Shown: piece after piece, positions 2,075-43,857 of the stretch
Layout of the letters: the number at the start of each line of letters is the position of its first letter
Numbering within the stretch: the first letter of the stretch is position 1
Source: Deltaproteobacteria bacterium
GTDB taxonomy: Bacteria; Desulfobacterota; Binatia; HRBIN30; JACQVA1
DNA: 64,000 nucleotides
NCBI GenBank assembly: GCA_016178705.1
Contig: JACOST010000005.1
Span: 1-64,000 of the forward strand
Direction: 5' to 3'
Program-made: the position numbers and the translations under genes
Notes under the pieces: generated by a model
The model's database searches: none
What the model saw: only the letters and a program-made list of their open reading frames with translations
Told to the model about the DNA's origin: nothing

Positions 2075-3322
2075 ATGATCGATCCCGACAACTCACAACC
2101 GGCGAAGCCCGGCAGCGCGGCGGGTGAAGAAGACTTCGCCGCGATGCTCGCCGCCAGTGAAACGCAGCAGACCCGACGCAAGAAGATCGTCGCCGGAGAT
2201 GTCGTGCGTGGCCACGTGATCGCCCTCTCGGCCAGCAGTGCGTTCGTCGAAATCGGAGGCAAGGGCGAGGCCGTCATCAATCTCGATGAGTTTCGCGATT
2301 CCCAGAGCGGCGAAGTGCAGCTCGCCGTCGGTGATCAAGTCGAAGCGACCGTCACCGACGATGGTGGCCAGTCCGGCCAGATCACGCTCAAACGCACCGT
2401 TGGTCGCGGCGGTCATGTGTCGGGCGAACTTGATCAGGCACTCGCCGGCGGAATTCCGGTCGAAGGCATCGTAACCGGGGAGAACAAGGGCGGCTTCGAT
2501 GTCCAGATCGGGACCGTGCGCGCCTTCTGCCCGGGATCACAGATCGATCGCCGTCGCGGCCAGGCGGCGCAGTACATCGGCCAGCGGCTGCGCTTCCGCA
2601 TCATCAAGATCGAATTCGGTGGACGCAACGTCGTGGTGTCGCGTCGCGCGCTGCTCGACGACGAGGCGGCCGCGCAGGCGATTACGACCTGGGAGCGCCT
2701 CAAGGTCGACGCGGTCGTCCAAGGCACCGTGACTTCCGTGCGCGACTTCGGCGCGTTCGTCGATCTCGGCGGTGTCGAAGGCTTGGTGCACATCAGCGAA
2801 CTCGGCCACGGGCGCGCGCGCCATCCGTCCGACGTGCTCACCGTCGGCCAAGCCGTCGAGGTCAAGGTCCTCAAGGTCGAACCGGGTGATGGCGGCACGC
2901 GACCGAAGATCGGCCTCTCGCTGCGCGCGCTGGCGGCTGATCCGTGGGGCGCGGCGCGTGAGCAGTTTGCTGTCGGAGCCACGGTGCGCGGGACGGTGCG
3001 TCGCCTGGAGAATTTTGGGGCGTTCGTCGAAGTCGCACCCGGCCTCGATGGGCTGGTGCACGTTTCGAAGATGGCCCTCGATCGCCGCATCGCTCACCCA
3101 CGACAGGTGGTCAACATCGGCGACGAAATCGACGTGACCATCATGGCGGTCGATCCCGAGAAGCGCCGCCTCAGTCTGTCGATGGTCGAACACGCGCGCA
3201 AGGAGCAGGACGCCGGCAAGGTCGAAGCGCGTCAGGAGGAACAAGCCGCGGTCGCGCAAGCCAATGAGCGCAAGACCCTCGGCACGTTCGCCGATCTGCT
3301 CGCGGTTTCGAAGAAGGGATAG
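2075..3322 (+). CDS. Ribosomal protein S1-like RNA-binding protein, four S1 domains
   Basis: A 415-residue cytoplasmic protein with four OB-fold S1 motifs at roughly residues 39-110, 125-193, 208-285 and 295-370. The last two are the most canonical (RDFGAFVDLGGVEGLVHISEL and ENFGAFVEVAPGLDGLVHVSK, each ending in the usual LSLR/LSLSM strand). An acidic, low-complexity N-terminus and a Lys/Glu/Gln-rich tail flank them. The family binds mRNA, on the ribosome (S1/RpsA) or as a general RNA-binding factor. E. coli S1 has six domains, and four-domain forms are common outside gamma-proteobacteria, so this could be the cell's S1 or a paralogue. CGGAGG precedes the ATG. It is transcribed alone. Confidence 0.88.
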   Translation: MIDPDNSQPAKPGSAAGEEDFAAMLAASETQQTRRKKIVAGDVVRGHVIALSASSAFVEIGGKGEAVINLDEFRDSQSGEVQLAVGDQVEATVTDDGGQSGQITLKRTVGRGGHVSGELDQALAGGIPVEGIVTGENKGGFDVQIGTVRAFCPGSQIDRRRGQAAQYIGQRLRFRIIKIEFGGRNVVVSRRALLDDEAAAQAITTWERLKVDAVVQGTVTSVRDFGAFVDLGGVEGLVHISELGHGRARHPSDVLTVGQAVEVKVLKVEPGDGGTRPKIGLSLRALAADPWGAAREQFAVGATVRGTVRRLENFGAFVEVAPGLDGLVHVSKMALDRRIAHPRQVVNIGDEIDVTIMAVDPEKRRLSLSMVEHARKEQDAGKVEARQEEQAAVAQANERKTLGTFADLLAVSKKG

Positions 3323-3326
3323 ACCT

Positions 3327-3345
3327 GCGCGCGCACGCAGCGCGC
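3327..3345 (+). terminator. Possible hairpin terminator after the S1 gene
   Basis: Immediately after the stop codon, GCGCGC and GCGCGC can pair around a short loop. A T-rich run (TATTTCTTTTCC) follows downstream. It lies between two convergent genes, but the T-run is interrupted and overlaps the msrB 3' end. Confidence 0.35.
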
Positions 3346-3351
3346 TTCGAA

Positions 3352-3768
3352 CTATTTCTTTTCCTTCGGCTCGTCTTGCGGATCGAAATTCAAGCTCACC
3401 GAGTTCAGACAGTAGCGCTGGCCGGTCGGCGCCGGACCATCGTCGAACACGTGACCCAGGTGAGACTCGCAATTAGCGCAATGAACCTCGATACGCCGCA
3501 TGAAGAAGCTGCGATCGCTCTCGATGCCGACGTTGCCGGGATCGAGCGGCGCAGAAAAACTCGGCCAGCCCGTGCCGGACTCGAATTTAGTTTCCGAACT
3601 GAACAGCGGCGCATCGCACGCCACGCAGCGGTAGACCCCACGTGCGTGATGGTCCCAGTACTGGCCGCTGAAGGCACGCTCTGTCCCCTTCTTGCGACAG
3701 ACCGCGTACTGCTCGGGGGTGAGCTGCTGGCGCCACTCGTCTTCTGATTTGCTCACTTTGGCTCCCAT
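3352..3768 (-). CDS. msrB: Peptide-methionine (R)-S-oxide reductase MsrB
   Basis: A 138-residue, full-length MsrB that reduces the R-epimer of protein methionine sulfoxide back to methionine. All hallmarks are visible: zinc ligands C48/C51 (CVAC) and C97/C100 (CANC), the GTGWPSF signature, the HCANCESHLGHVF segment, and the catalytic cysteine C120 in RYCLNS. No signal peptide is seen, so it should be cytoplasmic. It is the last gene of a three-gene minus-strand run (patatin, MBL hydrolase, msrB) and starts only 15 bp after the MBL gene ends, suggesting co-transcription. A Lys/Glu tail (EPKEKK) closes the protein. Confidence 0.96.
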   Translation of the reverse strand: MGAKVSKSEDEWRQQLTPEQYAVCRKKGTERAFSGQYWDHHARGVYRCVACDAPLFSSETKFESGTGWPSFSAPLDPGNVGIESDRSFFMRRIEVHCANCESHLGHVFDDGPAPTGQRYCLNSVSLNFDPQDEPKEKK

Positions 3769-3783
3769 CAGTCGTTCGCTCCG

Positions 3784-4635
3784 TCAGACTTCAAAGCGCC
3801 ACGCCGGACCATCACGCACGATGCGGCCAGCGGTCGGCGTGGCGAAGTGCGTGCCGAATACCAACACGGGGCCGTCGGCATAGCGGGTCAGAAACGCGCG
3901 CCGCGTCGTGCGCGCGGCGTCGGCATCGACATCGAAGCTGCTCGGCCATTGCGGTTCCGCGCACTGCACGGGATGATGCATCAAGTCGCCGGTAATCACC
4001 GCTTCCGCAGCGCGTGAGCTGATCCGCACGCTGACGTGCCCGGGGGTGTGCCCCGGTGTCGGTTCGAGCCACACCTCGTCGGTGAGACGATGATCCGACG
4101 CCACCAGGTCGGCGAGGCCGGCATCGAAAATCGGCCGCACCGAGTCGCCGATCACGTCGCCATCGGCATTGTCCGTGACCTGCCTCCAGTGCTCCCACTC
4201 AGCGCGTGCGAAGAGGTAACGTGCCCGCGAAAACGTCGGCAGCCAGCGACCGTCGACCAGCATCGTGTTCCACCCGACGTGATCGATGTGGAGATGAGTG
4301 CAAAGCACCGTGTCGATCGATTCGCGCGGAAAGCCGGCCGCCGCCATGTCTTGCAGAAACGGCCCCTGGAGATTGGTCCAATGCGGATTGGTGCGCTGCT
4401 TGTCGTTGCCGATGCAGGTGTCGACGACGATGCGTCGGCCGCACGACTCGATCACCAACGCGTGCACCGATGCGATCAGGCGGCCCGTCTCGTCGATGAA
4501 GCGCGGCCGCAACCAGCTCGCGTGCCGCAGCACACGTTCGGGTGTCGCATCCGGCAGGAGGAACGTCCCCGGCATCGGCACTTCGCTTTCAATCACGCGG
4601 GTGATCGTCACATCACCGATCGTCCATCGATGCAT
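3784..4635 (-). CDS. MBL-fold metallo-hydrolase (lactonase-like)
   Basis: A 283-residue metallo-beta-lactamase-fold hydrolase. The binuclear-metal signature HLHIDH is at 114-119. Further ligands are in PTPGHTPGH, the Asp in ITGDLMHHP, and a late His in FGTHFATP. The overall plan (N-terminal VDTCIGNDK, then HLHIDHVGWN) is that of quorum-lactonase-like or alkylsulfatase-like MBL proteins that open esters or lactones. The true substrate is unknown. The frame stays open further upstream, but that part overlaps the patatin gene. The ATG at 4635 (MHRWTIGDV) matches the usual family N-terminus, so I chose it. It lies between patatin and msrB on the same strand. Confidence 0.9.
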   Translation of the reverse strand: MHRWTIGDVTITRVIESEVPMPGTFLLPDATPERVLRHASWLRPRFIDETGRLIASVHALVIESCGRRIVVDTCIGNDKQRTNPHWTNLQGPFLQDMAAAGFPRESIDTVLCTHLHIDHVGWNTMLVDGRWLPTFSRARYLFARAEWEHWRQVTDNADGDVIGDSVRPIFDAGLADLVASDHRLTDEVWLEPTPGHTPGHVSVRISSRAAEAVITGDLMHHPVQCAEPQWPSSFDVDADAARTTRRAFLTRYADGPVLVFGTHFATPTAGRIVRDGPAWRFEV

Positions 4636-7233: not shown

Positions 7234-8163
7234 ATGAGCGGTATCAAGATCGGCATCGGCTTTGGGCTCTCGCGCTTCGGCATGCCGAGCCCCGAGACGA
7301 TCTGCGCGTATGCCGAACGCGCCGAGGATCTCGGCATCGACTCGATCTGGCTCTCCGACCGCATCGTGTCGCGCCAACCGCAGCTCGACATCGCCTGCGT
7401 GATGGCGTTGTTCGCCGCCCGCACCAAGCGCATCAAGATGGGACCCGCGGTGCTGACCTTGCCCGCCCGCGATCCAGTGCAGGTCGCGCGCACCTACGCC
7501 ACGCTCGACTATCTCAGCGGTGGGTGTCGCCGCATCATCATGGCGGTCGGATTGGGCAGCGATCCGCGCGACTGCATCGCCTGCGGCATCAAGCCCGAGG
7601 AGCGCGTCGCACGCCTCGAAGAAGGCGTCGAGGTGCTGCGCAAGTTGTGGAGCGCGCCGAACGTCACCCACCACGGAACCTTCTATCACTTCGACGACGT
7701 GACCATTGAGCCACGCCCTGCCCACGGCGCGCTCGACATCTGGATCGGCGGCCGCAGTAACCCAGCGCTGCGGCGCACGGCAAAGTACGGCGACGGCTGG
7801 TTCCCGTCGTTCATCTCGCCGACGGAATTCACCGAGGGCATGACCAAACTAACCGCGTACGGCGCCGCGCTGGGGCGCACCATCGATCCGGGCGAAGCCG
7901 GCGTCGTACTGCTCACCTACGTCAACCGTGACCGCGACCGCACTCGCCAAGTGGCCGAACTGGTCGCGCAGAATTTTCGCGCACCCGCCGACGCGATGGC
8001 CGCGCGCAGCGCAATCGGCACGCCGGAGGAGTGTGCCGACGTCATTCGCACCTATGTCGCCGCCGGCTGCACGAAGTTCGTCCTGTTCCCCATTGTTCCG
8101 CCCGATGAGTTGGTCGGCCAGATCGAACTCTACGGCCGCGACATCGTGCCGCGGTTCCAGTGA
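7234..8163 (+). CDS. LLM-class (luciferase-like) F420/flavin-dependent oxidoreductase
   Basis: A 309-residue bacterial luciferase-like TIM-barrel monooxygenase or dehydrogenase. The family core is clear: ICAYAERAEDLGIDSIWLSD, TKRIKMGPAVLTLP, the flavin-site LDYLSGGCRRIIMAVGLG, PAHGALDIWIGG and AKYGDGWFPSF. Such enzymes use F420 or FMN to oxidise diverse substrates (TIGR03619-like). The ATG at 7234 is preceded by GGGAGA. The frame is open upstream, but that leader is not protein-like. Its TGA overlaps the next ATG (TGATG), so the VOC protein is translationally coupled and probably acts in the same pathway. The substrate is unknown. Confidence 0.92.
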   Translation: MSGIKIGIGFGLSRFGMPSPETICAYAERAEDLGIDSIWLSDRIVSRQPQLDIACVMALFAARTKRIKMGPAVLTLPARDPVQVARTYATLDYLSGGCRRIIMAVGLGSDPRDCIACGIKPEERVARLEEGVEVLRKLWSAPNVTHHGTFYHFDDVTIEPRPAHGALDIWIGGRSNPALRRTAKYGDGWFPSFISPTEFTEGMTKLTAYGAALGRTIDPGEAGVVLLTYVNRDRDRTRQVAELVAQNFRAPADAMAARSAIGTPEECADVIRTYVAAGCTKFVLFPIVPPDELVGQIELYGRDIVPRFQ

Positions 8164-8849
8164 TGCAACTCGACAGCGCTCACATCGGCGTCGACGATCT
8201 CGATCGCGCCGCAGCGCACTACGCGCTACTACTCGGCAGTGCACCGGTGACGACCGCCGGCGGCACGCGACGTTTCCAACTCGAACGCGGTGCGGTCGAA
8301 CTGGAAGTCGGCGCACCCGGCGTTCACGCGATTCGTTTCGTGCCGGCCGCGATGAGCACGCCGACGTGGCCGGTCGATGTCGACGCGTTCAACGGCCTCG
8401 ATGTCCGCATTGGAGCGATGACCAGTCCCTCGATCACCACGGTCTCGGCCAACGCCGTGCACGCGATCGATCACGTCGTCATCAACACACCGGACCTCGA
8501 CCGCGCGATCGCCCTGTGGCGCGATCGTCTCGGCGTGCGGCTCGCGCTCGATCGCGAGTTCCCCTCGCGCGCGCTGCGCATCTGCTTCTTCCGCAGTGCC
8601 GACATCACACTCGAGTTTGTCAGCAGCTTGCCGCCGCCGCCCGATCGTTCCGGCCCCGACCGTTTCTTCGGTATCGCGTATCAAGTGGCGGATCTCGCCG
8701 GATGCCGCGATCGGCTGCTGCAAGCGGGCATCGACGTCAGCCACGTCCGCCCGGGCCAGAAGTCAGGCACCGAGGTCGCCACCGTGCGCAGCCACACATC
8801 GGGCGTGCCGACGCTGCTGATCGCGCCGGTCAGCAGCCGTAGCGTCTGA
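8163..8849 (+). CDS. VOC (glyoxalase/dioxygenase-fold) protein
   Basis: A 228-residue protein of two vicinal-oxygen-chelate modules. Each opens with the betaalphabeta phrase of the family: LDSAHIGVDDLDRAAAHYALLLG (residues 2-24) and IDHVVINTPDLDRAIALWRDRLG (about 101-123). The second module keeps a complete strand pattern through FGIAYQVADLAG. Metal ligands could be the His of IDHVV and the Glu of ITLEFV. The family includes glyoxalases, extradiol dioxygenases and epimerases, and nothing here fixes the reaction. The ATG overlaps the stop of the LLM oxidoreductase by one base. A GTG three bases earlier is the alternative start. Confidence 0.85.
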   Translation: MQLDSAHIGVDDLDRAAAHYALLLGSAPVTTAGGTRRFQLERGAVELEVGAPGVHAIRFVPAAMSTPTWPVDVDAFNGLDVRIGAMTSPSITTVSANAVHAIDHVVINTPDLDRAIALWRDRLGVRLALDREFPSRALRICFFRSADITLEFVSSLPPPPDRSGPDRFFGIAYQVADLAGCRDRLLQAGIDVSHVRPGQKSGTEVATVRSHTSGVPTLLIAPVSSRSV

Positions 8850-8866: not shown

Positions 8867-11251
8867 TCAGTGCTGGGTGCGGACGCATCCGTAGAGAGAA
8901 GCATTGAGGGCGAGAATCAGTTCATCGATCGTCACGTGCCGATTGCCATCGCTGTCCGCCCGTGGACACCCCGCATACGTCGTCTCATCGAGCGCGATAT
9001 GGACGCCCTTCACCAACTCGTCGACGGTCACGGCACCGTTGTCATCGCAGTCGCCGAAGCACAGGCCAGGGGTCGGCGTCGGGGCACGCGTAGGAGTTGG
9101 GCTTGGGGTTGGTGTGGCTGTCGCGATCAATGGCCCCGGGTCGGACGGTAGCGTGAGAACGTAAAGTTGCGGACTTCGAAAGAAGTAGGGTGGACTGCCA
9201 ACGATATTAGTATAGGCAACAAAGGCGAGGTGCTCGCCCGTCGCGTCAAATTTCAGCCCTTGCGCATCGCGGGGTACGCCCAGGAGCTGGTGTACGCCGG
9301 TCGGAGTGATCATCTGCCCCACGCCGTACGGGCCGACAGAAAGCATCAGCGCGATGCGCGATGCGTCGGCATTCAGAGTGTAGCTGCCGATGAACACCCT
9401 TGGATCGGTGTTGTGTGTCAACTGTCGCAAGGGCCCGCCGATTTGCTGAGCATAGAGCTGAGCGCGCGCGTCTTGGTTCGTGCCAACGAGGTCGGCCGAC
9501 GACTCGAACACCACCCATTTTCCATCACGGCTAAGGCGCCATCCATACGCGTCCGCAGAGGTGAGCTGGATGGTCTTCCCGCTGTGAACGTCGAACAAGT
9601 AAAGATGCCCTTCGGCGAACGTTGCACCGTTGTCATTGTCCGGTACATAAACATAGGTTGATCGCTCGAACAGTATCCGCTGACCGTCGGCGCTCAACTG
9701 GGGCGAGTAGACAGCGTCATCGTTCGGACCTGCCTTCGTCACCTGCCGCAGCGGTTTGTTCTCGCGCCAGAGGAACATCTCACCATGATGGTCAGGATTG
9801 GTACCGACGTAGTCTGCCGTCGATGTGAACACGACTGTGCGACCGTCAGCACTGATGTCCGGGCCGAAGTTGGGCCGTGCGCTTGGGTTCGTGATCGCAA
9901 TTGGGCCGCCCGGCGTAAACAGCACCATCTCTGCATCACCACCCTTGCCCGGCTCCGTCTGAAAGGTGGTACAGGTTGCCACGACGCGAGTGCCATCTCC
10001 GTTTACGCGAACGTGGTCACAAGCGCGACCCGATCTCTGGCCATCGTTCAGTTGCCGACGATTCTCACCGTCGGTTTCCACTGCGATCAGATCGGCCAGG
10101 TTAGTGTAAGCGACCACGGTGCCGTCGTCACTGATGTCCAAATCATAGACCTCTGCGACGTCCCCACCCGATGTCAGCAAGCGTGCATTGGGAACGGGCG
10201 ATGGGGTTGGTGTCGGAGTCTGCACCGGACAGCCGCCGGGTATTGTGCCGATCAGTATCTTTCCCGGTTGTCCTCCAACCGTAGTCGTGGCGACCACCGC
10301 GTTCGTAGCCGTATCAATCGCCGCAACAGCGGAATAGCCCGCCAGCGTCACGTAGACCCGACGGCCGTCCGGGGTAATGGCGACGTGCCTTGGATAGCTG
10401 CCGTCGCCAAGAAAGATGCTCCCAACAACCACGTTCGTATCGAGGTCGATCACGGAGAGTTCGCCCGTATTCAACTGCGCCACGTAGGCACGCCGCAACT
10501 CAGCGCTCACGGCCAGATTGGTCGGCGCGCTGCCATGAGTAAACGGGATGGTCGATGCAATCGACCCCGTCGAGACATCGATCACAGAAACGGAATCCGA
10601 CAACGAGTTCGCGACGTACACGCGGTCACCGCTCGGAGTGATGGCGATGCCTTCAGGATAGCTGCCGACGGCGATCCGCTGCACGACCGCCCTCGAATTC
10701 GTGTCGATGACGGCAACGCCACCAAACAGGCCCTTGGTTACATATGCGAATGCCGAATCTGGAGTAATCGCAACGCGTGTCGGAAAATATTCAACGTCAA
10801 CAGACGTAGCGATCTTGTTCTGCGCCGTATCAATCACGGCGACTCCTCCCCCATAATCCTGACCCGATGCTGCCTGAAAGGCGACATAGGCAAATCGGCC
10901 GTCCGGGCTGACCGCGATGTCCTTGAGCTTGGGATTTCCACTCAATGCAATTTCCCCGACCTTGTCGTACGTGCGCGCGTCGATCACCACGATCGTACTT
11001 TCATACAGCTTCGCGGCATAGAGGAATCGACCATCTGGCGTTAGATCTCCAGTCGTGAGCGCGCCTTGCCTAATGTGGGCCGCAATCTGGTCTTCACCAG
11101 TATCGATGACCGCTGTGGCGTCCGCACTATTGGTAACGAAGGCGCAGTACTGCGCCGCACACGGGGTTGCCAGCGCGCCGAGGACAAGGCCGCCCACCAC
11201 CGCCGCGACTCGCTGCCAGATGTGGAGCATCACGTGATCGGTGCAATGCAT
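8867..11251 (-). CDS. Secreted YVTN/TolB-like beta-propeller protein with dockerin-like C-terminus
   Basis: A 794-residue exported protein. A signal peptide (hydrophobic AAVVGGLVLGALA, cleavage near CAAQ) is followed by YVTN-type propeller blades at about 35-340, with repeated phrases such as VAISPDGRFAYVAF and VYVANSLSDSVSVIDV. A Thr-Pro linker comes at about 341-352, then a PD40/TolB-like propeller (about 355-690, DISADGRTVVFTS), a second TPTPSPTPTR linker, and a cysteine-bracketed pair of EF-hand/dockerin-like loops (GDCDDNGAVTVDELV and RADSDGNRHVTIDELI). The final pair probably binds calcium. The role is unknown: extracellular or periplasmic, perhaps a binding scaffold. An ATG at 11230 is an alternative start that leaves a tidier signal peptide; neither has a clear ribosome site. 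Confidence 0.88.
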   Translation of the reverse strand: MHCTDHVMLHIWQRVAAVVGGLVLGALATPCAAQYCAFVTNSADATAVIDTGEDQIAAHIRQGALTTGDLTPDGRFLYAAKLYESTIVVIDARTYDKVGEIALSGNPKLKDIAVSPDGRFAYVAFQAASGQDYGGGVAVIDTAQNKIATSVDVEYFPTRVAITPDSAFAYVTKGLFGGVAVIDTNSRAVVQRIAVGSYPEGIAITPSGDRVYVANSLSDSVSVIDVSTGSIASTIPFTHGSAPTNLAVSAELRRAYVAQLNTGELSVIDLDTNVVVGSIFLGDGSYPRHVAITPDGRRVYVTLAGYSAVAAIDTATNAVVATTTVGGQPGKILIGTIPGGCPVQTPTPTPSPVPNARLLTSGGDVAEVYDLDISDDGTVVAYTNLADLIAVETDGENRRQLNDGQRSGRACDHVRVNGDGTRVVATCTTFQTEPGKGGDAEMVLFTPGGPIAITNPSARPNFGPDISADGRTVVFTSTADYVGTNPDHHGEMFLWRENKPLRQVTKAGPNDDAVYSPQLSADGQRILFERSTYVYVPDNDNGATFAEGHLYLFDVHSGKTIQLTSADAYGWRLSRDGKWVVFESSADLVGTNQDARAQLYAQQIGGPLRQLTHNTDPRVFIGSYTLNADASRIALMLSVGPYGVGQMITPTGVHQLLGVPRDAQGLKFDATGEHLAFVAYTNIVGSPPYFFRSPQLYVLTLPSDPGPLIATATPTPSPTPTRAPTPTPGLCFGDCDDNGAVTVDELVKGVHIALDETTYAGCPRADSDGNRHVTIDELILALNASLYGCVRTQH

Positions 11252-11355
11252 GCAGGATCGTGATGCACAACTGGACAGTGTACTTTACACGCCACCATCG
11301 TGACGTCGCTTGTGGATCAACGTGGCGCCTTTGTCAACGTCGCTGATCGCGCGGA

Positions 11356-11694
11356 TCAGCAGCGGCATTGCGCGGAAGGATTGACGTCGCGCACTCGCGC
11401 CGCCACGAACTCCTTCACCCCTTCGCCGCCAGTCAGTCGCAGCCACAGCGGTCCCGCCGCCGGTTCCCATTCGAGCGCGATGCGGAAGAAGGGGCAGCAG
11501 CGTCGTTCGAACAACACGAACTCAGCGGCCGCCTGACTGGCGGATGAATCCAGTCGCAGCGCGAAGCCGTCGGCTAGCTCGCGCACTTCGCGTACGCCGC
11601 TGCGCACCGCGGTCGCGAGCGCCTCGTAGCAGACTCGTTCATCACCCGTGAAGGCGTTCAGATCGCAGGCGATCGGCAACGACTCGTTGGCCAT
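11356..11694 (-). CDS. Small conserved CCPF-motif protein, function unknown
   Basis: A 112-residue soluble protein. Its distinctive feature is the double-cysteine motif RRCCPFFRIALEWE near residue 65, followed by a Trp/Leu-rich strand and LTGGEGVKEFVAARV, ending in QCRC. Short proteins with a RCCPF core are widespread hypotheticals, and the vicinal cysteines suggest metal binding or redox chemistry, but no reaction is established. The ATG at 11694 has AAAGGAA about 8 nt upstream. The frame runs further into the amidase 3' end, which I consider read-through. It lies 19 bp downstream of the amidase gene on the same strand and may be co-transcribed. Confidence 0.72.
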   Translation of the reverse strand: MANESLPIACDLNAFTGDERVCYEALATAVRSGVREVRELADGFALRLDSSASQAAAEFVLFERRCCPFFRIALEWEPAAGPLWLRLTGGEGVKEFVAARVRDVNPSAQCRC

Positions 11695-36146: not shown

Positions 36147-37985
36147 ATGAAGTCACGGTGGATTCGCTCGGTAAGAATCATCGCAGCGTGCTTCGGGTTG
36201 CTGATGCTGGTGACAGTCTGGCGGCCGTTGGCGGCTGCAGCGAATACAGGCAGCAGCTCGGCATTCGGCGAGTCGGTGAGTCTGAGTGTCGTGCCTGCCC
36301 TACCACCGACCGTTAGCATTACTAGCGCCCCACTGCCGACAGTGTCAGGGAGCGCGCCGCCATCCTACATGCTCACCGACACCTTGGCCTCGGTGCTGGT
36401 GTCGGACACCTTGACGGGACAAGTGCTGAGTACGGGCACCCTGACTGTGAACGCTAGCTCCACGCTGCCTACTACCGACAGCGCCAGCGCTGATGCGACG
36501 GTGAATGGGCTCGATATCGACGTGGTGACCTTGCTGTCGTTGCTAACGATCGACGCCACCTCAGTGCAATCGACCGCCTCGATCACCGGGACGTGTGGCG
36601 ACTCGCTCAGCGCGGCGGGCAGCACCACCTTTGCCAACCCGAGCGTCACCAGCACGCTGGCGATCGGACTATCTATTGCCGTCTCGCCGGCCGCCAATAC
36701 GATCCTGCTCAATGTCTCCGGCGTGAAGGTCGTGTTGAATGAGCAAGTACAAACTGGGGACGGCTCGACGGCTGCGGGCCTGACGGTCAACGCGATCCAC
36801 ATCACCCTGACGAATGTCGCGCTCGCCGGTATTGGAACGATCAACGGCGATATCATCATCGCTCAGTCCGTTGCGACCTTGGATTGCACGAGCCCGACTC
36901 CCACGCAGACACCCACTGACACACCGACAGCCACGCCCACCGGCACCCCGACCGCAACACCAACAGCGACGCCCACAGCTACTGCGACAGAGACGCCGAC
37001 TGAAACATCAACCGCAACCCCAACAAGTACCCCTACGGCGACTCCAAGCGATACGGCCACCGCCACGCCAACCGCGACTGCGACCGAGACGCCGACGGAC
37101 ACGCCGACGGCCACACCGAGCGATACTCCGACGGCAACGCCCACGAGCACCCCGACTGACACGCCGACCACGACCGCGACTGAGACGCCGACTCACTCGC
37201 CGACCGCAACCCCGACTCACACACCGACGGTCACTCCGACGGACACACCAACCGCTACGGCCACGACGACGCCGACCCAAACACCCACCACAACGCCCAC
37301 CGCCACCCCGACCGCCACGCCGACGATGACCCCCACCGCCTCGCCTAGTCCGAGCAGAACGGCCAGCCGAACAGCCAAGCCAACGAAGACACCGGGCCCG
37401 CCGGATGCCGATGGCGATGGTATCCCCGATGCCATCGAAGGTTCCGCCGACCGCGACGGCGATGGAATTCCCAATTTCCTCGACTACGATCCGAGCGGCC
37501 ATTTGTATGACGAGGCCACCGGCCGCATTCTCAAGGGCGGACACGTGCAGGTGAGCCCAGCAGGACCTGTCAGCCTTCTGGCCAACGGCTCGCAAGGCTT
37601 CTATCAGTTCACCGTCGCCGTGGCCGGCCTCTATACCATCACGATCCAGCCACCGACTGGATTTCGTCCGAGCAAGATGTGTCTGCGCCAGGATCCGCCG
37701 CCGTTTGATCCGACCGGCGGCATGGACCCGTTGAGCTTGGGCAACGGTGAAGCGGGCGCAACAGGCATGCTGACCTCGAATGCGTGCACGCCCTTTTATC
37801 TCACGTTCAATCTCGAGCTCGGTGACCCCTTCATCATCAACAACAACATCCCGTTGCGCCGGATACCGACGGCGGTTCCGACGATGACATCCGGTACCCA
37901 GCTCCTCACGGTACTTGCGCTCTGTTTGCTGGCAGCCGCAACGCTCGGCGGTTCTGCCGCACGGCGGAGTAGCAGACAGCGATGA
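36147..37985 (+). CDS. Secreted PT-rich protein with IPTL-CTERM-like tail
   Basis: A 612-residue exported protein. Signal peptide at 1-32 ([15 protein letters not shown]). A beta-rich domain (about 33-248) rich in Ser/Thr/Val follows. A Thr-Pro repeat of about 165 residues (units such as TPTATPTDTP) then forms an extended, probably glycosylated linker. Next are two thrombospondin-3-type Ca loops (DADGDGIPD and DRDGDGIPN), a small beta domain ([15 protein letters not shown]), and a C-terminal VPTM + hydrophobic helix + Arg-rich end ([10 protein letters not shown]). The last part fits the IPTL-CTERM pattern, a sorting signal for membrane-coupled processing. Start ATG has AGGGAG. Inference: surface-displayed protein. 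Confidence 0.85.
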
Positions 37986-38165: not shown

Positions 38166-39663
38166 GTGCCGCGTCGCCCTTCGTCCCTGCTCGACACCCG
38201 CATCATCTACTGCGGCGATTGTCTCGATCAGCTCCCAAAGCTGCCCGATCATTGCGTCGATTTGATCTACATCGATCCGCCGTTCAACTCGAACCGCAAC
38301 TATGAAGCGTTCTGGGGCGAGACGAAGGAAAAGCGCGCGTTCGAGGATCGGCACGCCTCGACACAAGCCTACTTGGAGTTCATGCGCCCGCGCTGCGTCG
38401 AGCTGGCGCGCGTGCTCAAGCCCACGGGCAGCTTCTACTACCACTGCGACTGGCACGCCTCGCACTACGTCAAGGTCATGCTCGATCAGATTTTCGGCGA
38501 GAACAATTTTCGCAACGAAATTATCTGGCAGCGTTCAAACTCTCACAATGAAGCCCGTCAGTATGGGCGCATCCACGACACGATCTTCTTTTACACGGGA
38601 TCAGACACCTATACGTGGAACGCGATCAGGCTCCCCTATAGCCGCGAGCAGATGAAACGCTATAAGCAGGACGCGGACGGGCGTTGGTACAAGGGCGAGA
38701 ACCTTACCGCCGAGCGACTGGATAGCGATTCTGGGAAATTCGAGTGGCGCGGGACAAAGCCTCCGCCGAGTCGCGGCTGGGGGTATAGCGTCGAGCAACT
38801 TGAGAAATGGTGGCGCGAAGGTCTGATCCTTACGAAGAAAGATGGCACGCCGCGAATGGACGGCCAAAAAGTGTACCTCGACGATACGCTAGGCAAGGGA
38901 CTCCAATCCATTTGGACCGATATTCCCCGTATCGCAAACACCAGTTCTGAGCGTCTCGGCTACCCGACGCAAAAGCCACTCGTCCTGCTAGATCGAATCA
39001 TCGCCGCGAGTACCAATGAAAACGACATCGTGCTCGACGCCTTTTTGTGGCTGCGGGACCGCTCTTGTGTCCGCGCAGAATCTGAAACGCCAGTGGATCG
39101 GCATTGACGTGTCGCCGACTGCGTGCCGCGTGATGGCGAAGCGGCTGCGCGATGTCTGCAAGCTGCGCGAGAATGAGGAGCTGTGGCAGGCGGGACGAGG
39201 CTTCGTGGTGCGCGATTTGCCGCGCAGCGAAGACCAACTCCGCAAGCTGCCGCACTTTGAATTTGAGAATTGGGCAGTCATCGCGCTCGGCGGCATCCCA
39301 AACAAAGCACAAGTCGGCGACATGGGAATCGATGGCCGTATCTATCCGGTGTCGGCAGTGGAACAGAGGCGCGACACCTCGCAGCGGCGCGAGAAGGAAG
39401 CGAAAGCGCAGGAACTTGGTTTCATGGATCAATGGTATCCGATCCAAGTGAAGCAGAAGGACAAGGCTGGCCGACCGGACATTGACTCGTTCGAAGCCGT
39501 GATGGCGCGCGAGGATCGCACCAAGGGTTACTTCGTCTCGTTCGATTTCACGCAGGATGCCTACATTGAAATCCGTGCGTTCTTGCGGAAGTCCGGGCGA
39601 ATGATCATTCCACTGACCGTCCGCGAAATACTAGATGAGCAGATTGCGCAGAAGATGGTTTGA
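38166..39663 (+). pseudogene. Site-specific DNA methyltransferase fused to Mrr-like nuclease, frameshifted
   Basis: The first part (GTG 38166 to about 39043) encodes an adenine/cytosine-N4 methyltransferase: CGDCLDQLPKLPD, motif IV DPPF (37-40), and a target-recognition region (ERLGYPTQKPL). The frame then needs to shift: NDIVLDAF should continue CGCGTALVSA (motif I, SAM binding), but a run of five T (39042-39046) puts that out of frame, and the unshifted reading ends at 39107. In the second frame the protein continues to 39663 with motif I and then a C-terminal nuclease-like domain: GDMGIDG ... YPIQVKQKD, the D...QxK pattern of Mrr-type PD-(D/E)xK enzymes. Deleting one T restores a single protein of about 499 residues. 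It could be a real mutation, a sequencing error, or phase variation. Confidence 0.82.
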
Positions 39664-39793: not shown

Positions 39794-40315
39794 CTACTTC
39801 TTCGGCGGCAAAAGTGGGAGCACTCCCTGTGACGAGACGGGTCGGCGGGGCGCCTTGGTATCCAAGGTATGCCGGCCAGCGATTGTAGGGCCAAGAGGCA
39901 AAATCTTTCGGACCTTCTTGTCGACTGGATCGGCACCATCGAACGTAAAGAAGGTTTCGCAAGGTATCGCGATCGCCGTCGCCAAGTGAATTGCATCTGG
40001 CGTCGTAATCCTCGGTGTAGGGTAGTGATCGCGGATCTGGTGGGCGAGGTCAGCAACTGCGGATGTGACGCCATCGACGCGGATGGTAGAACGCCGTAAA
40101 CATGCTTGAAACTGCGCCGCTTGCTCGGACATGAGACGTGAATCCAGCACCTCGATGCGTGTGATCGTCGAGGTGGCTATGACCAACCGCCCAGCGTCCC
40201 ACTCATCCACGAGGTAGGCGATGCCATCCATGTCGAGCGGATTCGCGCGGTGCTCATCCTTGAGCCACGCGATGAAAATGCACGAGTCCCAGTAGACAAC
40301 TCGCCTACCAGGCAT
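39794..40315 (-). CDS. PIN-domain protein
   Basis: A 173-residue PIN-domain protein. Acidic positions in order: D10 in YWDSCIFIAWLKDEH, E55 region in ITRIEVLDSRL, D in TTPDAIHLATAIAI and D in TFDGADPVDKK, the usual four of a metal-dependent RNase. The C-terminal 30 residues are a Pro/Arg-rich tail. Its start overlaps by 11 bp the end of an uncharacterised 267-residue gene upstream. That is the layout of a toxin with its controlling partner, although the partner is far larger than a usual antitoxin. It converges on the frameshifted methyltransferase gene. Confidence 0.85.
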   Translation of the reverse strand: MPGRRVVYWDSCIFIAWLKDEHRANPLDMDGIAYLVDEWDAGRLVIATSTITRIEVLDSRLMSEQAAQFQACLRRSTIRVDGVTSAVADLAHQIRDHYPTPRITTPDAIHLATAIAIPCETFFTFDGADPVDKKVRKILPLGPTIAGRHTLDTKAPRRPVSSQGVLPLLPPKK

Positions 40316-41108
40316 TCCTCAGCCTTCGGACAAACACGTCAGAGGATTCCCCGTTCGCGGCATCAGGAGCAATGCCCCGAAGACCGCGAAGCGATGGCAG
40401 GTCAACATCCGCATCGTGGACTTCTAACTCGCGCGCGTTCACCGCGTGCGGTTGAAGCATCTTCGCTTTGAATCGCAGCATCCCGGTCACCGTGACGTGG
40501 CGCCGTATGGCTTGCCCGACTTTGGCCACCAGCTCTTGAGTGAAGAAGCACCTGATCCGCTCTTGGCCACCGGCAGGATAGAGCCAGAAAAATGGGCGCG
40601 GCTGATGAACGTTGATGATGTCCAGCATCCCAGAGACAGCGCCGTGCTCCCGCCGATCCGGACCGACGATCTGCGCGATTTTCTCTCCGAAGGACGCAGA
40701 GACCTTCGCCTTCACACTGCGATGCTCGAAGGATGCTTCGCGCAGACGCCCGTTGAGGTGCTTCGCCAGCTGTTGATAGTCGAGGAGCAGCCCTGCGCCA
40801 AAACCTCTAGGCACGGCACCCGATAAAATCTCGTTCACCCCGCCGACGAAGGTGGTCAAGACGCGATCGCGTAGATCCAAATCGATTTCCCGCTTCTCGG
40901 CGCGGAGCACCACTGTCGCCGGGCTCGAATGGCTCAGATCACGCACACTATAGTATGTGGTTGGCTCGTCACTGTGAGCTATAGCGCGGTCAGTGGCATG
41001 GAGGACCGTACGTAGATCAAAAAGGAAATCAAGGAAGTCATCAAGCCGCACGTCCCGATCGCCAGTGGACGGACCCTTCATTTGCACGATGAGACGATAG
41101 TCGGCCAT
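40305..41108 (-). CDS. Uncharacterised partner of the PIN protein
   Basis: A 267-residue soluble protein I do not recognise. The ATG at 41108 (MADYRLIVQMKGPSTGDRDVRL) is a good N-terminus; the frame is open upstream in poor composition. Visible pieces: an N-terminal alpha/beta part (residues 1-60, FLDFLFDLRTVLHATDRAIAH), a central helical part (LNGRLREASFEHRSVKAKVSASFGEKIAQIVG), and a beta-rich C-terminus with FFWLYPAGGQERIRCFF then VTGMLRFKAKMLQPHAVNARELEV. The last region could be a small OB- or SH3-like barrel. The 11-bp overlap with the PIN gene means they are co-translated. Inference: it regulates or targets the PIN protein. Confidence 0.75.
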   Translation of the reverse strand: MADYRLIVQMKGPSTGDRDVRLDDFLDFLFDLRTVLHATDRAIAHSDEPTTYYSVRDLSHSSPATVVLRAEKREIDLDLRDRVLTTFVGGVNEILSGAVPRGFGAGLLLDYQQLAKHLNGRLREASFEHRSVKAKVSASFGEKIAQIVGPDRREHGAVSGMLDIINVHQPRPFFWLYPAGGQERIRCFFTQELVAKVGQAIRRHVTVTGMLRFKAKMLQPHAVNARELEVHDADVDLPSLRGLRGIAPDAANGESSDVFVRRLRNAW

Positions 41109-41445
41109 GGCTGCCCGAATCTTAGCAACCGCCACGACGGGGTGTCCAGCGGAGACCGAGGTAGGGGAGACCGCGAGGTAGGGCAAGCAAAGGTACCGCT
41201 ACCATACCCACAAGCTCGAAGTTGGCGACGGTGGCCGGTTTGTTGAGGCGCTGAGCACGGCGACCGGGCGGCGGCTCACTTAGAAGCAACTGATCGGCGA
41301 CGGTGCAGCAGGACGACTCTCAGCGACGTTCAACCGAGGTCCACCAACCGAGGTTCGGCCTTGACGATCGCGTCGCCGTGCAGACAGAATGCACGCCGTG
41401 CCCACCAAGGATCCCGAATGCGCTTTGCCGCCGACCGAACATGAG
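41109..41445. other. Intergenic region, divergent promoters, no gene seen
   Basis: The 337-bp gap separates divergent genes. It contains a short direct repeat AACCGAGGT...AACCGAGGTT (about 41326-41352) and nothing else I can name. An upstream ATG at 41389 for the SDR gene lies here. Confidence 0.4.
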
Positions 41446-42252: not shown

Positions 42253-43857
42253 CTATGCGGTGAAGATCCCGGGGTCACCGGGTTTGAAGCGCTCGATCAG
42301 AAAGCGCTCTTGCGGTTTCTCCGAGGCGGTCTTGGGGATCTCGTCGACGACCTGCAAGTACGAGGGCACGAAGTTGGGCTCAAGGCCTTTAAGGCACGCC
42401 TCGAAGATCGTCGCTGGGATGAGCGCCACGCCGGGCTCGACCACGATTGCCGCAACCACGTCCTTCTCGCCCGGCGCACCCGAGGCCGCCGGCACGCCGT
42501 AGACGAAGACGTCGGCCACCGCCGGGTGTTCGGCGATGACCTTCTCCACGAACCCGGTATTGATGAAGTCGCCGTTGTGGCGAATGCTGCCGCCTTTGCG
42601 GTAGTCGAAGAAGAACCAGCCGTCGGCGTCGCGATGACCCATGTCGCCACTGCGCAACCACCCGCGCGCGGTTTTTTCTTGCGACGCCTTTTCGTTCGCG
42701 TAGTACTCGACGCTGGCGGCTTCGCCGCTCGCCGGACGCGAGACGATCTCGCCGATCACGCCCGGGGGGCACTCCTTGTCGTCTTCAGCGACGATCTTCA
42801 TATCGAGGCCGGGCACGGGCTTTCCGAAACTGCCGATCGGACCATCGCCGATCGGCTTGAACGCGAGGCCGCCTTCCACCGCGCCGTACCACTCGAACAC
42901 CTGCACGCCGAAGCGGCGCTCGAACGGCTGACAAATCGCCGCCGGCATTCCGGCATCAATCACCATGCGCACGAGATTGTCCGTGTCGTTGGCGCGCGGC
43001 GGCTCGCTATAGATCGCCGTCGCCATGCCACCGAGCATCGAGAAGGTGGTGCAGCGATAGCGACGACAGATGTCCCAGAGGCGAGACTTAGTGAAGCGCC
43101 GGCTGAATACCGCGCGCAATCCCATGTTGAGCGACGGCCCGAGCGTAACCGCCTGCGCGTTCCCGTGCGTAAGCGACAGACCGGTGTAGGGTCGATCATC
43201 CGGCTGGTAACCGAGCAACGCGCCGAGCATGCCGAACATGCCGAAGCGTGCGTTGGGGAATACCACGCCCTTGGGGTCGCCAGTGGTACCGGAGGTATAG
43301 ATGATCTGCAGCGGATCATTCGGATTCGCCAGTCGGACATCGACCGTTACGGCCGGCATGGCGAGCGCGGCGTTGAGTGACTCGGCATTGGCGAGCGCCA
43401 CCGGCTCGGGGGTCTCGCGGGTTTCGAGCGCGAGGATCCACGTGAAATCTGGGAGCGCCGCGCGCACCGCCTCCACTTGATCGAGGCAATAGTCGGCGCA
43501 CACGACGCCGCGGCAACCGGACTGCCGCAGCATGTAGGCGAGCTTCTCACCGCGTGTGCGGGGATCAATCGGCACGAACACGCACGCGCTGATCGAGGCG
43601 CCGATCATGGTCTCGACGAACTCCGGATGATTGCGCATCATCAAGCCGAAGCGCTGACCGGGACTCATGCCGCGCGCCAGCAGTGCGGCGGCGATGCGAT
43701 GGCCGTTGGTGTGCAGATCGGCATAGGTTCGCACTTCGTCGGGCAGTTCGGCGTTGCCCAAACTCCAGCGTTCGAACGTGAGCACGTCGAGATCCGGCTG
43801 CCGCTCGGCGCGGATCGCGACGAGGTCGGCGAGAATCAGGTCGTTGCGTTCGCGCAT
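42253..43857 (-). CDS. AMP-dependent acyl-CoA synthetase/ligase
   Basis: A 534-residue ANL-superfamily enzyme activating a carboxylate with ATP to acyl-AMP and then acyl-CoA. The phosphate loop IIYTSGTTGDPKGVV lies near residue 190. The acyl-AMP motif FEWYGAVEGG and the GWLRSGDMGHRDADGWFFFDYRKG hinge region are intact, and the final catalytic Lys region (PKTASEKPQER) is present. It resembles crotonobetaine/carnitine-CoA ligases (CaiC-like). Last gene of the minus-strand run acyl-CoA dehydrogenase - nitroreductase - thiolase - ligase, 13 bp after the thiolase gene. Confidence 0.94.
   Translation of the reverse strand: MRERNDLILADLVAIRAERQPDLDVLTFERWSLGNAELPDEVRTYADLHTNGHRIAAALLARGMSPGQRFGLMMRNHPEFVETMIGASISACVFVPIDPRTRGEKLAYMLRQSGCRGVVCADYCLDQVEAVRAALPDFTWILALETRETPEPVALANAESLNAALAMPAVTVDVRLANPNDPLQIIYTSGTTGDPKGVVFPNARFGMFGMLGALLGYQPDDRPYTGLSLTHGNAQAVTLGPSLNMGLRAVFSRRFTKSRLWDICRRYRCTTFSMLGGMATAIYSEPPRANDTDNLVRMVIDAGMPAAICQPFERRFGVQVFEWYGAVEGGLAFKPIGDGPIGSFGKPVPGLDMKIVAEDDKECPPGVIGEIVSRPASGEAASVEYYANEKASQEKTARGWLRSGDMGHRDADGWFFFDYRKGGSIRHNGDFINTGFVEKVIAEHPAVADVFVYGVPAASGAPGEKDVVAAIVVEPGVALIPATIFEACLKGLEPNFVPSYLQVVDEIPKTASEKPQERFLIERFKPGDPGIFTA

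Follow-up and report, generated by a model that had tools for sequence, protein, structure and literature searches.

A pair of overlapping genes in the window, the 64,000-nucleotide stretch of DNA analysed here, is probably a VapBC-like toxin-antitoxin module whose OB-fold antitoxin has a new architecture. The partner of the PIN protein belongs to a real family, and its pairing with PIN is conserved. The genes lie as follows:

40305..41108, reverse strand: partner, the proposed OB-fold antitoxin (ATG at 41108, stop at 40305, 267 aa)
39794..40315, reverse strand: PIN-domain protein, the proposed toxin and putative ribonuclease (ATG at 40315, stop at 39794, 173 aa)
40305..40315, reverse strand: overlap of the partner and PIN genes (11 bp), which may couple their translation
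41119..41148, reverse strand: weakly supported match to a sigma-70-like promoter, TGGACA-18-TAAGAT, 10 bp upstream of the partner ATG

The original prediction, that a gene for a 267-residue protein overlaps a PIN gene by 11 bp, is confirmed, with both genes on the reverse strand. An alternative TTG start at 41186 would give a partner of 293 aa, but the ATG at 41108 was adopted because family alignments favour it. Chance does not account for the pairing: in its relatives, too, the partner has a PIN gene next to it, with a similar overlap.

Relatives were gathered by whole-genome searches, with the protein first and then with growing profiles, and the family could be reached only via profiles and a few divergent members. 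When genome and viral contigs were scanned with P0001 alone, as a single protein or as a pattern, nothing was returned; searches of plasmids gave no matches, either by tblastn with P0001 and five other partner queries or with tail peptides alone as queries. The searches yielded 22 relatives of the partner, and therefore 23 loci with the window copy; one candidate, L003, was rejected as a chance match inside an MnmG-like gene. The relatives come from the window's phylum, from Alphaproteobacteria, from viral contigs (IMG/VR) and from a Rhodospirillales MAG, and plasmids of Roseomonas marmotae and Methylobacterium oryzae carry family members. Their distribution is patchy, with members in 4 of 390 genomes of the window's phylum and 11 of 385 in the alphaproteobacterial sample.

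PIN lies directly downstream of the partner in all 21 evaluable loci, the window counted; this number leaves out L044, at a contig edge, and L046, an element in decay whose transposase is broken. The profile search that had been proposed for the partner thus led to PIN as its constant neighbour and to no unrelated known family. Spacing between the two genes ranges from -17 to +5 bp, with the exception of L040, where PIN is frame-broken. Distance matrices of partner and PIN correlate (Mantel r = 0.74, p ≤ 0.0002, n = 16 loci). At both L040 and L046 the partner is intact and PIN is broken or missing; retention of the partner while PIN decays is the direction expected of an antitoxin and its toxin, in a sample biased by the use of the partner to find the loci.

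VapBC and FitAB systems have a PIN toxin with four conserved acidic active-site residues and, next to it on the upstream side, an antitoxin gene that usually overlaps it; both features are found here. The window PIN matches Pfam PF01850 (E = 1.6e-7), and the PIN profile matches the VapC 7by2 (E = 0.0017). Its acidic residues are D10, E55, D107 and D126; among 16 PINs, no variation is seen at E55, D107 or D126, and D10 is present in at least 90%. RNA is a frequent substrate of PIN nucleases, and the window protein would act as a toxin in the form of a metal-dependent ribonuclease.

The partner had been described as belonging to no known family, and the database comparisons agree. It has no match in Pfam, NCBIfam or PADLOC, and when it is taken together with the 18 first aligned relatives, only single chance-level matches are obtained in Pfam, NCBIfam, PADLOC and PHROGs. 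Across the family the protein measures 250–340 aa, and the window partner is larger than its toxin (267 vs 173 aa). Three regions are distinguished in it:

about 150 residues before the OB fold: N-terminal region, probably alpha/beta
residues ~151–236, central: predicted OB fold, from structure comparison of the model
residues ~236–267: C-terminal tail, LPSLRGLRGIAPDAANGESSDVFVRRLRNAW, variable across the family

An AlphaFold2 model built from a shallow alignment is usable only for partner residues ~150–232 (pLDDT about 75), and the modelled core runs in the order strand-strand-strand-helix-strand-strand. Beyond the OB fold the model is poor (mean pLDDT 45), and a second AlphaFold2 model, of the partner at L053, was no better. 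When residues 151–236 were compared with VIA-align, the best Z score (10.1) was to OBody, an engineered OB fold, and the OB folds of PriB, SSB and aspartyl-tRNA synthetase scored at Z about 8.5–9.8. As modelled, the centre of the partner is an OB fold. Two other likenesses were set aside: that to lysyl-tRNA synthetase, at the top of the whole-model Foldseek search, stems from the OB fold only, and the full structures superpose poorly, and a PDB sequence search of the partner returned only designed coiled coils over a helical region, which were judged spurious.

The tail of VapBC and FitAB antitoxins ends in an Arg motif, and this is matched in part of the partner family: the long tails of the window, L019, L017, L042, L043 and L048 end in (F/Y)(V/I/L)xx(L/M)R. 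Several subclades have a short tail (e.g. ...LPTPEDVRGIL) that lacks the terminal Arg motif, which argues against the antitoxin reading. So does the absence from the partner of any AbrB, RHH, Phd or HTH domain recognisable by family match, although the protein may still bind DNA. VapBC and FitAB antitoxins are small and carry an AbrB, RHH or Phd domain, whereas members of this family are longer and combine an OB fold with an N-terminal alpha/beta region, and the partner matches none of the antitoxin family models. Because the search for a classical DNA-binding domain found none, it has not been filed as a VapB member.

Tails of this family are also found on recognised antitoxins. L056, an independent relative that was found last, has a different tail and a canonical VapC-like PIN (PF01850, 4.4e-20; NF047863, the tRNA(fMet)-endonuclease VapC model, 7.4e-24, below its cut-off). 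A search of 168 genomes with the L056 tail alone retrieved two short proteins, L057 and L058. The latter is a small antitoxin of ~97 aa (tail match to L056, E = 1.5e-5) encoded directly upstream of a VapC that is 37% identical to the L056 PIN, so the likeness of L056 to VapBC and FitAB extends both to a canonical VapC-like toxin and to the tail of a VapC-linked small antitoxin. L057 has a VapB-type tail and no PIN nearby, which counts against the antitoxin reading. The tail type of the window partner is present on HicB-like proteins at L020 as well (PF15919, 7.3e-7; tail E = 3.7e-12 with the family profile), whose N-terminal domain differs from that of the window partner; no toxin was recognised beside these proteins, again contrary to the antitoxin reading. 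The two L020 proteins are near-identical and lie about 1.4 kb apart on the reverse strand (8028–8369 and 9398–9739), and a PIN remnant is seen at 11220–11363. Since tails are shared with VapC-linked and HicB-like antitoxins, the tail would appear to vary with the kind of toxin and the OB body to remain constant. The original prediction that the partner is far too large and unlike known antitoxins is therefore half right: it is larger than usual, but tails of its family are shared with recognised antitoxins, the L056 tail with L058 and the window-type tail with a HicB-like antitoxin.

The mechanism that we propose is as follows. The partner, with its N-terminal alpha/beta region, central OB fold and C-terminal tail, would be the antitoxin, and its tail would reach over the active site of PIN. 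In the VapBC complex of S. flexneri, Arg64 of the antitoxin tail occupies the acidic pocket of VapC, where in the authors' view it displaces metal (PMC3384007). By analogy, the partner tail may act in the same manner in the acidic pocket of PIN. The overlap of the two genes would allow antitoxin and toxin to be made together, with the antitoxin first. If the module were lost, the toxin would outlast the antitoxin and the cell would be harmed, so that the module would be kept, together with its carrier DNA. We infer PIN toxicity, neutralisation by the tail, an RNA target and a ligand for the OB fold; the benefit would be maintenance of the carrying element, or it may be phage defence.

The carrying DNA in most relatives is an IS1595-type transposon, and the window pair stands alone. 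An IS1595-type transposase or its remnant is found beside the pair in about 14 of the 23 loci (for the L048 transposase, PF12762, E = 6.6e-35), and inverted repeats surround transposase, partner and PIN in nine (L015, L016, L018, L021, L024, L038, L039, L048 and L054). Seven of these nine repeat-bounded elements exhibit an 8-bp target duplication:

L018: AACTCTCC
L021: TATCTTTA
L024: TAAATTTT
L038: TATTTTTT
L054: AATCGGAA
L016: TTTGAAAA, read inside a longer reported arm
L039: AAATATTT, read inside a longer reported arm

Most relatives' pairs are thus cargo of small IS1595 transposons. Gene order around the transposase varies (convergent in L018 and L024, co-directional in others), and frames overlap in some. 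The pair is intact without a transposase in the window and at L019, L041, L042, L045 and L053. A small third ORF recurs after PIN in L021 (6348–6533), L047, L051 and L054; it has a motif like F.E.AR.LG.DE...F....IA..KP and may be a third gene of IS1595 cassettes.

Passenger genes are known in IS1595-family elements, namely in tISs such as tISCpe8 (PMC5704250). The tISs resemble the elements of the relatives in having a transposase, terminal inverted repeats and target duplications round the passengers, but those of their documented passengers that were found here are resistance and mobilisation genes. Our literature searches found no description of this PIN pair as an IS1595 passenger, although an earlier mention may exist. 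The Tn3 family offers a parallel: toxin-antitoxin pairs, of which two have a PIN (PF01850) toxin, are found inside its transposons, beside the transposition genes (Lima-Mendez et al. 2020, PMC7157771). In those Tn3 elements PIN is accompanied by a Phd/YefM, AbrB or RHH_6 antitoxin and TnpA is large, whereas the elements described here are small and IS1595-type and the partner has a predicted OB fold.

The window copy differs from these elements. No IS1595 transposase was found in the 12 kb around it, and within 7 kb of it there was no credible IS1595 repeat end and no enclosing repeats or 8-bp duplication; the best match to the repeat consensus (17/24, at 42532) lies outside the island and is unpaired, and shuffles reach 14–16. 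The GC content of methylase, PIN and partner is 57–59%, as opposed to 63–68% in neighbouring genes, and their GC3 is 0.66–0.73 against 0.82–0.88. Because this low GC is common to all three genes, they look like one acquired island. The neighbour of the pair is the following:

38166..39663, forward strand: fusion of an N6_N4_Mtase DNA methylase with an Mrr-type nuclease, convergent with the pair at a distance of 130 bp

The frame of this gene is interrupted at a T-run (39042–39046), with most of N6_N4_Mtase in a first ORF and the end of that domain plus Mrr_cat in a second. The frame change may reflect a sequencing error, phase variation or a pseudogene. Upstream of the methylase, at 36147–37985, a predicted secreted protein has a long Thr-Pro-Ser repeat (PTATPT-like).

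A methylase-nuclease had been noted beside the pair, and it is indeed there; the further suggestion that the three genes form a defence or abortive-infection trio was weighed as an alternative. In that case the OB-fold protein would sense phage or damage nucleic acid and release PIN, with the methylase-nuclease in the same unit. We regard this as unlikely. The shared low-GC island favours it, and an OB fold suggests nucleic-acid binding. Methylases also recur: at L048, transposase, MTase-HNH (2569–4005, on the same strand), partner and PIN lie between IS1595 inverted repeats, with an MTase domain 38% identical to that of the window, and at L019 the pair is preceded by a methylase that looks type III. 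Counted with the window, however, methylase neighbours amount to only 3 of the 23 loci, an occasional association rather than a fixed or defining one. In the window itself, an operon of methylase, partner and PIN was rejected, since the genes are on opposite strands and the methylase frame is broken. The methylase-Mrr gene is thus probably not part of the pair, and of the trio only the recurrence of methylases beside it was upheld.

A single PARIS-like neighbour was found, at L053 (6022–8486), where AriA/AriB-like genes adjoin the family member on a viral contig, and this speaks for a defence role; an integrase-like ORF and a TmtA-like ORF lie upstream. In contrast, PADLOC models match neither partner nor PIN, and the majority of copies travel as transposon cargo with no further defence gene. 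There is likewise only a small chance that the OB-fold protein is a nucleic-acid-sensing PIN inhibitor in a minimal mobile defence unit, spread by IS1595 and sometimes accompanied by a methylase-nuclease. The defence explanation overlaps with the toxin-antitoxin reading, because a toxin-antitoxin pair may itself give phage defence.

The transposon carriage might instead indicate an accessory unit for transposition, in which the OB-fold protein binds single-stranded DNA of the transposon, PIN is a DNA nuclease aiding IS1595 excision or target choice, and stand-alone copies are decayed remnants. The frequent adjacency to the transposase, in some loci co-directional with overlapping frames, the recurrent third ORF and the SSB/PriB-type structural neighbours are consistent with such a role. 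We nevertheless consider it very improbable: the pair is intact at six loci that lack a transposase, gene order round the transposase is not constant, neither of the two transposases in the window's genome has a family member elsewhere in it, and the sharing of tails with antitoxins would be left unexplained. An RNA-processing pair with no toxin role, in which the OB-fold protein would hold RNA in place for a PIN nuclease of a housekeeping kind, is hardly credible, since the closeness of the OB fold to tRNA-synthetase anticodon-binding domains and the frequent RNA-directed activity of PIN nucleases are set against a patchy distribution and a transposon carriage unlike those of housekeeping genes.

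If the pair is indeed a VapBC-like module, it would add to these systems an apparently undescribed antitoxin architecture, in which an OB fold is combined with an exchangeable PIN-binding tail, and a swap of tails would be predicted to swap toxin specificity. It would also put a name on a family that annotation pipelines label "hypothetical protein". IS1595-type elements, for their part, would gain a recurrent toxin-antitoxin cargo, parallel to that of Tn3 transposons.
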